From NCBI GenBank assembly GCA_026387965.1, contig JAPLKR010000079.1, forward strand, positions 1 to 7,102: a stretch of DNA of 7,102 bases, read 5' to 3'. How positions within the stretch are numbered: position 1 is the stretch's first letter; every line of letters starts with the position of its first letter. The translations under genes were made by a program, and so were the position numbers. The stretch comes from Fusobacteriota bacterium (GTDB taxonomy: Bacteria; Fusobacteriota; Fusobacteriia; JAPLKR01). Below, in pieces: positions 2,287 to 7,101 of this stretch. Under the pieces are notes generated by a model. That model had not been told where the DNA came from. It did not search any database and saw only the letters and a list, made by a program, of their open reading frames with translations.

Positions 2287-3378
2287 CTAAAATTGATAAA
2301 TATTGGTAATATTTCCATTTGCAACGACGTCACGCGTAATATAGCTAGTATAGGTAAAATTCGCATTGTTAGGGTCAAAAATAGCGTTTAGTACATTAGC
2401 AAGTCTCATTCCTGCAACGTACACTTGCTGCTTTGACATATTTTGAACAAACTCCGTGTAGCGCTCATCATTAAACATAATAATTTTATTATCCGAAGCT
2501 CCATTTTGGAAATTATAAGCAATTTTTTTATTGTTATTTTGTAGTGCTTGAATGGCAAGTTTATTTGTTTCAATTGCCCAATCTCTCACCGAAGCTAGAG
2601 ATACAAGATAATTTGCTTTACTGTTATTTGAATACATTTGCTCAATATCTTGAGCCGATGTTCTTATTTGCTGTGATAACACCTTGGCATTCTCAATCGC
2701 ATCTGAATTACTAGAGAACGAAAACACTCCCCCTGCATCATTCCACAAAGCATACAATGTCTGATCTTGGGTACCTGAGACATCTAACACCCCTGGAATA
2801 TTCAATGGAACTTGCAAAAATATAAGTCTTGCGCTTTCTGTGTTTTGAGAGTTCATAAAAGGATTGCTCACTTGAAATGGTTGTGTGGCATTACCAACAA
2901 AAGAGATTAAGTAACGAAGTGCAATAGCCTTTGTATTATTCGAAATACCGCTACTACTTGATAATACTTTCTCGGCGCTTTCTATACCATAAGCTAAATT
3001 ATCCCCATTAGAACTTATATAGGCTGTGGAATAATAGCGCATAATAGGTCCTGCTGAACTACTTTGACTTATATACGTTTGAATAGTGAGTATCTGTAAA
3101 TTTTTATTAAATTTCTTTTGAACCAGCGATTTCCAATTGGACTCGTTAAGTGTTTCGGCCCATAATGAAGCTGTTTGAATTGTTGAAGTTTTTGCTGATA
3201 ATTCTTGAGTTCCAGGATAAGAGATGGGCGTGCTCAGTAATGATGCAACGCTCTGTTTGGTTGAAGGAGTCATATTATTCCAAGCTATTTGTGAAATAAC
3301 CATATGTGTTGGTGCATTCCAACAATAAGAAAATTCTGTAGCCACCAGTAATGCGGCACATATATATATAAATTTCAT
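2287..3378 (-). CDS. Exported S1/P1-nuclease-like protein with degenerate metal site
   Basis: The 363-residue product has a signal peptide (residues 1-19) that would leave W20 as the mature N terminus, as in S1/P1 nucleases where Trp1 and His6 bind zinc; here W20 and H25 keep that exact spacing. Other family landmarks are ASLWAETL (70-77, family ASWADxx), ALRYLISFVGNATQPFQ (153-169, family VHFIGDxHQPLH), LYALWND (208-214, family LHxxWD), WAIETNKLA (267-275) and QQVYVAGMRLANVLNAIF (317-334). The ligands are mostly replaced: D by E, HF by YY at 115-116, H-D-H by S-N-Q, and H-x3-D by Y-x3-N. It is therefore probably exported but not a three-zinc nuclease. A strong AAGGGGGAG site precedes the ATG. 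Confidence 0.85.
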   Translation of the reverse strand: MKFIYICAALLVATEFSYCWNAPTHMVISQIAWNNMTPSTKQSVASLLSTPISYPGTQELSAKTSTIQTASLWAETLNESNWKSLVQKKFNKNLQILTIQTYISQSSSAGPIMRYYSTAYISSNGDNLAYGIESAEKVLSSSSGISNNTKAIALRYLISFVGNATQPFQVSNPFMNSQNTESARLIFLQVPLNIPGVLDVSGTQDQTLYALWNDAGGVFSFSSNSDAIENAKVLSQQIRTSAQDIEQMYSNNSKANYLVSLASVRDWAIETNKLAIQALQNNNKKIAYNFQNGASDNKIIMFNDERYTEFVQNMSKQQVYVAGMRLANVLNAIFDPNNANFTYTSYITRDVVANGNITNIYQF

Positions 3379-3726: not shown

Positions 3727-3762
3727 TAAAGGAAAAGAAGACGGTTGGGGGACCGTCTTCTT
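3727..3762 (-). terminator. Intrinsic terminator downstream of the permease gene
   Basis: An exact 11-bp stem (AAGAAGACGGT / ACCGTCTTCTT) has a 6-base loop. Read on minus it is followed by a T-rich tract (TTCCTTTATT), so it can end the permease transcript about 140 bases after its stop at 3900. On plus no T tract follows; instead AAGGGAG and an ATG do. It is the most GC-rich hairpin in the window. Confidence 0.6.
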
Positions 3763-3899: not shown

Positions 3900-5096
3900 T
3901 CATAATGTGCTTCCTATGAAATAAGATACAAGCAATAACACTCCTAGTATAAGTATAACATATGCGCCTTTGCTCATATGAATTTTACTTTTTTTCATTA
4001 AAATTACTGGTAAAACATAAGTTAATATCGCAATAATTGGGGTAATAAATATTCCAACAACTTCTAAAATATTTAGATTAAAGAGTAGCACAATAAACAC
4101 AAAACAAATGCTTAATACCGCTATCACAATTTTAACTCTCGTATTGTTTTTAGATCTTTTAGTTGTCAACATATTTTTTAGCGGCTCACTTAATCCTACA
4201 AAAGCCCCTAAAAATGATGCTGGTAAAATCAAAAGTCCTAACCACTTAGCCAAAATAGAAAGTCCTGGAATATCTAGAACACTCAATGCTGTCTGACTTT
4301 GAAGTCTTGCTACGTCCATTTCTGCGGGGGTTAATGCCAACGTGGATGATACGACAAAAAAACCAATAAATACTACGATTAACAGTTGTGAAAAAAAGAG
4401 CGTATCCCGGCAATCTTTCATCATGACCTCTTGGCTTTTCCCTTCTTTTTTATAAGTAAATACCATCTCAGAAATAATTGCAAAATAATTAATTGCCATA
4501 ATTACAATAGGAAGTATTAGCAACACACCCATTATGAGATTAGCTACTGATGGAAACTGTGAAAATTCAGAAAAGTTCCAATAAGGTATTAAACAAAGTG
4601 AAAAAATTAATAGCGCTGCCATAATAAATATAGATTTTATTCGCATTACCACATAAAGCAAAAACTGCTTAAATACAATTATTAATGAAAAGAAGATCGT
4701 GATTATTAAAATAAAATACAAGCTATCCTTTGATGTAAATATTCCAATATTTTCAGATTTTGAAAAGGCAAATAGATCATTTTTAAATCCTGTGACATAC
4801 ATACTGATAATCCCGAGCATCACAAGTAAAAATGCCACGACGAGTATTTTTCCACCAATTTTTCCAAACTGCTTTTCAATCACATCGCTATAACTGCACT
4901 CTTTATCTCTTGAATTTTCTACAACCAATTTACCAATGTATTTTTGTCCAAAATAATTAATAAAAAAGGCTATCGGAAGCGATATTATAAAGGCATATAT
5001 TCCACTCTTTCCGATTTCGTTGGGTAAAAACAAAACCCCTGCACCCATACATGTTGCAAAACACACAGCTATCCAACTTAATTTGTTATTTTTCAT
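3900..5096 (-). CDS. HAAAP-family aromatic amino acid permease, probably tryptophan uptake
   Basis: The product (398 residues) is an inner-membrane secondary transporter with about eleven hydrophobic segments. It opens with WIAVCFATCMGAGVLFLPNE, the first-helix signature of the hydroxy and aromatic amino acid permease family (TdcC, SdaC, Mtr, TnaB, TyrP), in which GAGVLFLP forms the unwound substrate-site helix. Length and layout fit the family. The sequence alone does not separate Ser/Thr from aromatic substrates, but the leader upstream encodes tandem Trp codons before a terminator, so I infer tryptophan uptake. Two ATGs (5099, 5096) follow GGAGG; the second has the better spacing of four bases. 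The transcript probably ends at the hairpin at 3735-3762. Confidence 0.88.
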   Translation of the reverse strand: MKNNKLSWIAVCFATCMGAGVLFLPNEIGKSGIYAFIISLPIAFFINYFGQKYIGKLVVENSRDKECSYSDVIEKQFGKIGGKILVVAFLLVMLGIISMYVTGFKNDLFAFSKSENIGIFTSKDSLYFILIITIFFSLIIVFKQFLLYVVMRIKSIFIMAALLIFSLCLIPYWNFSEFSQFPSVANLIMGVLLILPIVIMAINYFAIISEMVFTYKKEGKSQEVMMKDCRDTLFFSQLLIVVFIGFFVVSSTLALTPAEMDVARLQSQTALSVLDIPGLSILAKWLGLLILPASFLGAFVGLSEPLKNMLTTKRSKNNTRVKIVIAVLSICFVFIVLLFNLNILEVVGIFITPIIAILTYVLPVILMKKSKIHMSKGAYVILILGVLLLVSYFIGSTL

Positions 5097-5100
5097 CATA

Positions 5101-5105
5101 CCTCC
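5101..5105 (-). promoter_or_regulatory. Ribosome binding site of the permease (decides the start)
   Basis: GGAGG on minus lies one base before the ATG at 5099 and four bases before the ATG at 5096. One base is too close for normal initiation, so the second ATG is favoured. Confidence 0.65.
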
Positions 5106-5173
5106 ACATAGTTTTTGATTATATTGTAAAATAAAACAGATCTGAATTATCCAGACCCGATTTTTTTAAATAT

Positions 5174-5201
5174 AAAAAAATCTGCTCTAAAAAGCAGATT
5201 T
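5174..5201 (-). terminator. Attenuator terminator in the permease leader
   Basis: On minus, AAATCTGCT pairs exactly with AGCAGATTT across a 6-base loop, and seven consecutive T end at 5174. It lies between the leader peptide and the permease, so it ends transcription before the gene unless the stem is disrupted. It could also stop transcripts from the membrane protein gene at 5384-6511. Confidence 0.8.
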
Positions 5202-5247
5202 CTAATTTCAATAGAAAAAAGACGCTTCGAGCCTAGACGGTGCTTAT

Positions 5248-5295
5248 TTAATTTATAAGTAAAATCAAATTGCTCCACCAAAAATTTCTACTCAT
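5248..5295 (-). CDS. Trp-rich leader peptide of the permease transcript
   Basis: A 15-residue peptide, MSRNFWWSNLILLIN, is read from the ATG at 5295 to TAA at 5248-5250. Its ribosome site, GAGGAGG five bases upstream, is among the strongest in the window. The adjacent Trp codons at 5275-5280 are the sensing element: translation speed across them reports the supply of charged tRNA-Trp. The size, the early position of the Trp pair and the terminator about 50 bases after the stop all fit leader peptides such as TrpL. The peptide itself is unlikely to have another role. Confidence 0.75.
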   Translation of the reverse strand: MSRNFWWSNLILLIN

Positions 5296-5327
5296 CGCTG
5301 CCTCCTCAAATATTATTTTATAACACT

Positions 5328-5356
5328 ATTGTACCTCGAATATTTAAGCTACACAA
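5328..5356 (-). promoter_or_regulatory. Promoter of the leader peptide-permease transcript
   Basis: On minus, TTGTGT (5356-5351) and TACAAT (5333-5328) are separated by 17 bases. The -10 matches 5 of 6 consensus bases and the -35 keeps TTG. Transcription would begin near 5320, about 25 bases before the leader ATG. I did not find a convincing TrpR operator over it. Confidence 0.6.
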
Positions 5357-5383: not shown

Positions 5384-6511
5384 TTATTGCTCAAACTCTC
5401 TTTTTTCACTTTGTATCCCCATCACTGCATATAGACATTGATAATAAAACATCCATTTTATTACACTCGCGATAATATAGATCGGCACAATAAAATACCA
5501 GCTTTGCAATATAAAACAAAAACCCACACACCATAAAATAGCGTAGGTTAGTGCCAAAAATTTTGACGGCACAATTTTTGTACATTTTACTTGGTTCATT
5601 TGATTAACAATATTTTTTTGAAGTACAAGTAACGCAGAAAATCTCCAATAAAAGTTATAAAAAGGAATATAGTGCCGACCTACTGTTTGAGCTGACAAGC
5701 TCCTATCTTGAGTAACTTCATAACATAACTTATATAATAGTTTTCCTTCATATATCCAAATAAGTATTGTGGATGCTACGATACTTATTATCAAGACTAG
5801 TATCAGAAAATTTAGCCCACTAATATCACACTTTCTCTCTAAAAAAATCAAAACCACATTCGACATAAAGAGCCAGAACCCAACATTAAAATTCTTTCGA
5901 ATTTTACTAATTTTCTTTATACTCTCCGACTTAACTACTACATTTATTTGAGATGTTAAAGCTTCATGTCTTAAAATTTCACTATTTCTACTCTCTTCTT
6001 TTCCAGCAATTCTCATCAGCTTGTAAAAATACCATATGTTAAATACAGCTGACGCTATAATTACAAATATCGTTTGAGAAAAAGAGAAGTAAAATATTAA
6101 AATACAACTGGCAGCTGAAAAAACAATGTAGACACTTATCAATGTTCTACCAGGAATATAGTATTTCCCACACTTTTCACTGCGTAGTTTTCTCATATGT
6201 AAAATGAGTTTGATGTTAAAGGCAAAAATCCAGTAGATATTATAAATGGGAATAAAAAGAAACCCCACTGCTTTTCCGGGCGAAATATGTTTATTCTTTC
6301 TCTTAAATATATTATCCCATATAAAGTAAAGAAAAATATAGCGTTTAACAAGTGATACGATAGAAAACCCCAGCCCAAAAATACAAAATATAAGTGGTAA
6401 CAAAATTTTATCTGTATGCAAAATAAGTTGTATTCCTATAAGTGAAAATAACCAAGAAAGAGCCAAAAATAGTACCCATGAATAAAACTTATTTCTAATT
6501 TTGCTTTGCAT
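5384..6511 (-). CDS. Multi-pass membrane protein with two PGKAVGF-type repeats, function unknown
   Basis: This 375-residue protein has about eight hydrophobic segments and no signal peptide or enzyme motif. It appears to be a tandem duplication. The first half has hydrophobic segments at 10-32 and 37-55, then SPGKAVGFLFIPIYNIYWIF (77-96), two more segments and a Y-K-L-M-R-I-A end (163-169). The second half repeats the plan with SAQTVGRHYIPFYNFYWRF (273-291) and Y-x-x-L-Y-A-V-M-G-I at the end (357-366). The PGKAVGF-FIP-N-YW signature occurs in small bacterial membrane proteins of unknown function, perhaps related to DUF4328-like families. AGGCGGTG sits just before the ATG. It lies 59 bases after its paralogue and is probably cotranscribed with it. 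Confidence 0.8.
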   Translation of the reverse strand: MQSKIRNKFYSWVLFLALSWLFSLIGIQLILHTDKILLPLIFCIFGLGFSIVSLVKRYIFLYFIWDNIFKRKNKHISPGKAVGFLFIPIYNIYWIFAFNIKLILHMRKLRSEKCGKYYIPGRTLISVYIVFSAASCILIFYFSFSQTIFVIIASAVFNIWYFYKLMRIAGKEESRNSEILRHEALTSQINVVVKSESIKKISKIRKNFNVGFWLFMSNVVLIFLERKCDISGLNFLILVLIISIVASTILIWIYEGKLLYKLCYEVTQDRSLSAQTVGRHYIPFYNFYWRFSALLVLQKNIVNQMNQVKCTKIVPSKFLALTYAILWCVGFCFILQSWYFIVPIYIIASVIKWMFYYQCLYAVMGIQSEKREFEQ

Positions 6512-6570: not shown

Positions 6571-7101
6571 CTACGATAAGCTTTGAAACTCTTCAATCTT
6601 TTCAACAGCTTTAGTACATTTATAAAGATAAAGTACCATTAACAGCACGCCTATGATACTTACAATTTGACAGTAGTCTCCTAAAAAATATGACGCTACG
6701 GGGCCTACCCATGTAAGAAGGATCGCAAGGACCGCCATCCATTTACACGCACCCATTTTATGCTCTATTCCATGATTTTTCATGTAACTTCTAATTCTTC
6801 CTACTAAACCCGCATAGACATAGAAAACCCAATATATATTAAATGCCGGAATAAATATAAATCCCACAGCTTTTCCAGGTGACGCACTCCCATGTCCTTC
6901 ATAAATTCTTTTATACATCGAATATAGCAAAATCATTTTATAAACTAGGGCTACAATGAGAAAAGCCCCGCCACATAGTGAGATAATTAGGCCAATATAA
7001 TTTGTTGCTACTGGCGCATTGACAACAATGAGTATATCACCCACAATAACGAGTCCTAGTCCTATTATAAACCACATAAAATATCTACTAAATTTTTTCA
7101 T
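6571..7101 (-). CDS. Small multi-pass membrane protein with PGKAVGF motif, function unknown
   Basis: This 176-residue protein has four to five hydrophobic segments (about 8-27, 33-55, 81-101, 119-139, 144-160). The central signature SPGKAVGFIFIPAFNIYWVF (74-93) is followed by a basic cytosolic-looking stretch and an ending YLYKCTKAVEKIEEF (158-172). It is clearly paralogous to the next gene, whose two halves each resemble this whole protein. The ATG at 7101-7099 lies one base from the window edge, so its ribosome site cannot be seen and an upstream start is possible; MKKFSRYF is a plausible N terminus. TAG at 6571-6573 is 59 bases before the next start. No function is assigned. Confidence 0.78.
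   Translation of the reverse strand: MKKFSRYFMWFIIGLGLVIVGDILIVVNAPVATNYIGLIISLCGGAFLIVALVYKMILLYSMYKRIYEGHGSASPGKAVGFIFIPAFNIYWVFYVYAGLVGRIRSYMKNHGIEHKMGACKWMAVLAILLTWVGPVASYFLGDYCQIVSIIGVLLMVLYLYKCTKAVEKIEEFQSLS

Follow-up and report, generated by a model that had tools for sequence, protein, structure and literature searches.

Organization of the permease locus

The stretch of DNA analyzed here (the window, 7,102 nt from a Fusobacteriota bacterium) carries a gene for an amino-acid permease on its minus strand, preceded by an intergenic region with a short leader ORF, an intrinsic terminator (T1) and several candidate regulatory elements (Table 1). The start codon of the permease gene (ATG at 5099, minus strand) is preceded by its own GGAGG and, since the gene is closed by its own terminator, the transcription unit is probably monocistronic.

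Table 1. Features of the permease gene and its flanking regions.
Feature	Position	Strand	Basis
Candidate leader promoter TTGTGT-17-TACAAT, weak, 8/12	5328..5356	minus	Read by eye; below scan threshold
Shine-Dalgarno (SD) of leader ORF, GAGGAGG	5300..5306	minus	Read from sequence
Leader ORF MSRNFWWSNLILLIN, tandem UGG codons at 5280-5275	5248..5295	minus	Sequence; shuffle test
Candidate antiterminator hairpin, -8.5 kcal/mol	5191..5228	minus	Folding; no better than shuffles
Intrinsic terminator T1, 12 bp stem, loop 4, T-rich tail	5176..5203	minus	-12.8 kcal/mol
Second terminator-like hairpin T2, between T1 and permease	5137..5159	minus	-10.6 kcal/mol
Promoter-like site TTCAGA-17-TATAAT, downstream of T1	5118..5146	minus	Promoter scan, 10/12
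Amino-acid permease gene, 399 aa	3900..5099	minus	PF01490 / HAAAP-like; nearest model TIGR00814 (stp), below cut-off
Terminator after permease	3735..3762	minus	Terminator scan

The gene upstream of the intergenic region (5384-6511) encodes a membrane protein and lies on the same strand. It adjoins a second membrane-protein gene (6571-7101, also minus), and the two products have a repeated domain in common (36% identity over 95 aa), which the second half of the longer protein matches as well; the similarity of this domain to DUF4328 was only sub-threshold. Elsewhere on the minus strand of the window are genes for an S1/P1-type nuclease that seems to carry a signal peptide (2287-3378; PF02265, E 1.7e-16) and for the S-methyl-5-thioribose kinase MtnK (712-1905), which exceeds its NCBIfam cut-off. 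In the region beside mtnK (1906-2286, minus), several frames contain short open stretches that overlap one another, and the region resembles a decayed gene.

A leader ORF with tandem tryptophan codons

Read on the minus strand, positions 5306-5248 are GAGGAGGCAGCG ATG AGT AGA AAT TTT TGG TGG AGC AAT TTG ATT TTA CTT ATA AAT TAA. This is consistent with the original prediction of a 15-codon leader peptide with tandem Trp codons and a strong ribosome site: the predicted ORF has 15 codons and a TAA stop, codons 6 and 7 are the in-frame UGG pair, and a perfect AGGAGG, within the run GAGGAGG, is situated a few bases upstream of the ATG. To assess how often such an arrangement arises by chance we took the 284-nt stretch that separates the permease from the gene before it (5383-5100) and generated 20,000 dinucleotide shuffles, among which an SD-preceded short ORF of any kind was found in 12% and an SD-preceded short ORF containing WW in four. 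The leader with its WW, SD and terminator is present, correctly ordered and improbable by chance.

In a genome with many gaps, one SD-preceded WW ORF somewhere might still be a chance occurrence. Two genome-wide scans for the pattern SD...ATG...WW gave 26 and 19 matches, at partly overlapping places; a script tested the frame of 24 of the 26 first-scan matches, and the remainder and all 19 of the second scan were read by eye. Most of these matches carry TGGTGG out of frame. Among the in-frame matches elsewhere, four are inside long genes (rapZ, mutL, ftsZ and a transaldolase-like gene, as named from sequence) and two meet an in-frame stop before the WW, and no second intergenic leader with SD and WW was found in either scan once the matches had been checked for frame. 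Covariance-model searches of the region gave no T-box match up to E = 5, and no other known RNA family in Rfam matched at its gathering score.

Terminators, promoters and predicted RNA folding

T1 consists of AGAAATCTGCTTTTTAGAGCAGATTTTT followed by the T-rich tail, and is separated from the leader ORF by a 44-nt spacer (minus strand); it corresponds to the U-tailed terminator that had been proposed before the permease. A fold of 5174-5320 had been suggested as a check, but as a plus-strand interval this lies on the strand opposite to the gene; on the minus strand, the RNA 5327-5165 folds better than its shuffles (z = -2.63). The proposed leader promoter exists as a sequence at 5356-5328, but is a poor one and was not among the 39 sites of our promoter scan. 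These sites were themselves barely more common than in shuffles (33.6). Two elements were absent from the original prediction, the T2 hairpin and the promoter-like site at 5146-5118; as the latter lies beyond T1, it could, if active, free the permease partly or completely from control by the attenuator.

The antiterminator option (5228-5191) can form a hairpin on folding, but when the spacer was shuffled the 5' arm of T1 was equally paired upstream in 24.3% of cases, and for this reason we regard the antiterminator as possible but unproven. We modelled the ribosome as a masked 30-nt stretch and considered the RNA up to the terminator loop. With the ribosome stalled at W6 or W7, the spacer was free in the model and the T1 5' arm was paired upstream at 0.67-0.74, compared to 0.55 with no ribosome or with a ribosome at the stop codon. 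The modelled effect of a Trp stall on this pairing is in the expected direction and of modest size, and much of the upstream pairing is with the SD region, not with the partner in 5228-5191. Once the 3' arm of T1 exists, the minimum-energy structure has the terminator in every modelled state, so that antitermination, if it occurs, has to be kinetic. The end of the leader stop codon is 20 nt upstream of 5228 and, judging from this distance, a ribosome terminating there would probably not cover the 5' arm of the antiterminator, in which case the ribosome would have to be released and the 1:2 pairing re-formed.

These features may also be read as two unrelated units, with T1 as the terminator of the upstream gene 5384-6511, the permease transcribed from its own promoter at 5146-5118, and the small ORF a product of chance or an unrelated small protein. 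This would agree with the fact that T1 is the first terminator after the end of that gene at 5384, on the same strand, with the better match of the 5146-5118 site relative to the leader promoter (10/12 vs 8/12), and with an antiterminator that is not above chance. However, the similar number of promoter-like sites in shuffles makes the 10/12 site weak evidence, a perfect SD together with an in-frame WW is rare in so short an ORF (4/20,000 shuffles), and it is even less likely that a random WW ORF would stand in front of an amino-acid permease in an organism that seems to be auxotrophic for Trp (see below). Overall, we consider the two-unit arrangement rather unlikely.

The permease and its substrate

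The PF01490 match of the permease is above its cut-off. Among the NCBIfam subfamily models, the protein matches TIGR00814 (stp, Ser/Thr) over its full length (E 1.9e-56), but at 191.8 bits against a cut-off of 525.8; the TdcC model scores 84.2 bits, also far below its cut-off, and the aromatic model araaP was not reported in this search, whereas it was weakly reported for both paralogs described below. Since all subfamily scores are far below the curated cut-offs, the permease falls outside the named HAAAP subfamilies. It had been claimed that the leader fixes the substrate of the permease, which is too strong in view of the Ser/Thr score and the unregistered aromatic model; the leader is the sole indication of Trp as the substrate, and suggests Trp without fixing it.

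A Trp attenuator could also control a permease for another substrate, such as serine or threonine, as a precursor or co-limiting amino acid. Such a case would agree with stp, a Ser/Thr transporter model, and TdcC being the closest models, with araaP unregistered. Against this are the distance of all scores from their curated cut-offs, which places the protein outside the named subfamilies, and the fact that regulation through Trp codons most simply implies Trp, and we judge transport of another substrate to be quite improbable.

The genome has three permeases of this family, the window gene and paralogs on contigs C12 (47% identity) and C91 (25%). By eye, no leader was seen in the only ~74 nt available upstream of the C12 paralog, and no recognizable Trp leader upstream of the C91 paralog. 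In the collection searched, the genus, family and order are each represented by this genome alone, and the class and the phylum by 98 genomes each. No ortholog of the permease was found among these 98 genomes, in which only the genome's own three permeases matched, apart from one short, stop-riddled fragment (E 7e-4); an ortholog was likewise absent from the results of a viral-contig scan and of two scans made over genome contigs. Plasmid records gave distant permeases only, 24-28% identical among the 40 matches listed, some of them annotated as HAAAP. The attenuator candidate is known from one genome only. Across the phylum's other 97 genomes the permease family is nearly missing, which may reflect acquisition from outside or loss elsewhere.

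Tryptophan metabolism of the host

Searches for trpB and trpC, which were positive in 14 of 14 control genomes, found neither gene in this 95.5%-complete assembly: the one weak hit for trpB belongs to a threonine ammonia-lyase, and nothing matched trpC (indole-glycerol-phosphate synthase). Based on these absences, Trp auxotrophy of the host is likely though not proven. The assembly, in 141 contigs, also gave no match to 16S rRNA. Four Beta_elim_lyase matches were considered as candidates for tryptophanase and look like other enzymes by NCBIfam, namely a cysteine desulfurase (NifS), a serine hydroxymethyltransferase, an RfbH-type enzyme and a weakly matched threonine-aldolase-like protein. With trpB and trpC missing and no tryptophanase seen, an importer induced by Trp starvation would be physiologically sensible. 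The proposal of a Trp-scavenging switch on an uptake gene is accordingly upheld in part: the leader, its SD, T1 and the missing trpB and trpC all fit, but the antiterminator is no better than chance.

Discussion

The explanation we favor, with somewhat better than even confidence, is transcription attenuation mediated by the ribosome, through which an amino-acid importer, probably for tryptophan, is expressed according to how much charged tRNA-Trp is available. A ribosome short of Trp-tRNA would stall at codons 6-7 of the leader, and the RNA downstream would fold so that the T1 5' arm is sequestered, either via 5228-5191 or through base pairs between the arm and the SD region, and RNA polymerase would read through into the permease gene. 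When Trp is plentiful, the ribosome would reach the stop codon, the upstream RNA would re-pair with the spacer, and T1 would end transcription. Uptake would be a natural target of such an attenuator because Trp synthesis appears to be missing from the organism.

Classical Trp attenuators precede trp operons and trpS, including the leaders of Corynebacterium and Streptomyces (PMC1262725). The candidate resembles these leaders and E. coli trpL in its order of a short ORF with tandem UGG, an intrinsic terminator and the regulated gene. It differs in that its target is a stand-alone permease, in that the 1:2 and 2:3 pairings are only candidates, and in its occurrence in a single genome. Control of uptake by leaders that read amino-acid supply does have precedents in Firmicutes, where histidine attenuators or T-boxes are found on his transporter genes (PMC9413887) and T-boxes have been used for predicting transporter substrates (PMC2494555). 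Unlike those systems, which employ His attenuators or T-box RNAs, the locus described here has no T-box. Within our incomplete coverage of the literature, we found no report of a tandem-UGG leader and terminator before a stand-alone Trp permease.

Trp-related leaders are also known to act by peptide arrest. The leader peptide TnaC senses free Trp via arrest at its stop codon, works through Rho, and has W12, D16 and P24 as its arrest features. As in E. coli tnaC-tnaA-tnaB, the leader described here lies upstream of an HAAAP-family permease gene; in E. coli, Trp transport and catabolism are under TnaC (PMC10941005), and the HAAAP permease TnaB is a Trp permease (PMC3937554), which raises the idea of an arrest peptide of the TnaC kind, with the permease induced by high free Trp. 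In contrast to TnaC, the leader is without W12, D16 and P24 and ends in ILLIN, it has tandem UGG and an intrinsic terminator, and the genome has no tryptophanase-like match. We therefore regard an arrest peptide as very improbable here.

Returning to the ribosome-mediated attenuator, the idea of the switch is classical and its target, an uptake gene, is unusual. More tentatively, and with less than even confidence, we suggest that the locus represents a classical Trp-codon attenuator that controls a Trp importer, rather than biosynthesis genes, in a lineage whose Trp synthesis has been lost, and that it is the mark of a Trp-specific branch among the Ser/Thr-like HAAAP permeases. If this is true, attenuation outlives the loss of a biosynthetic pathway, or is newly recruited after it, and serves scavenging, and the leader would point to a substrate that can be tested for a permease to which sequence models assign none.
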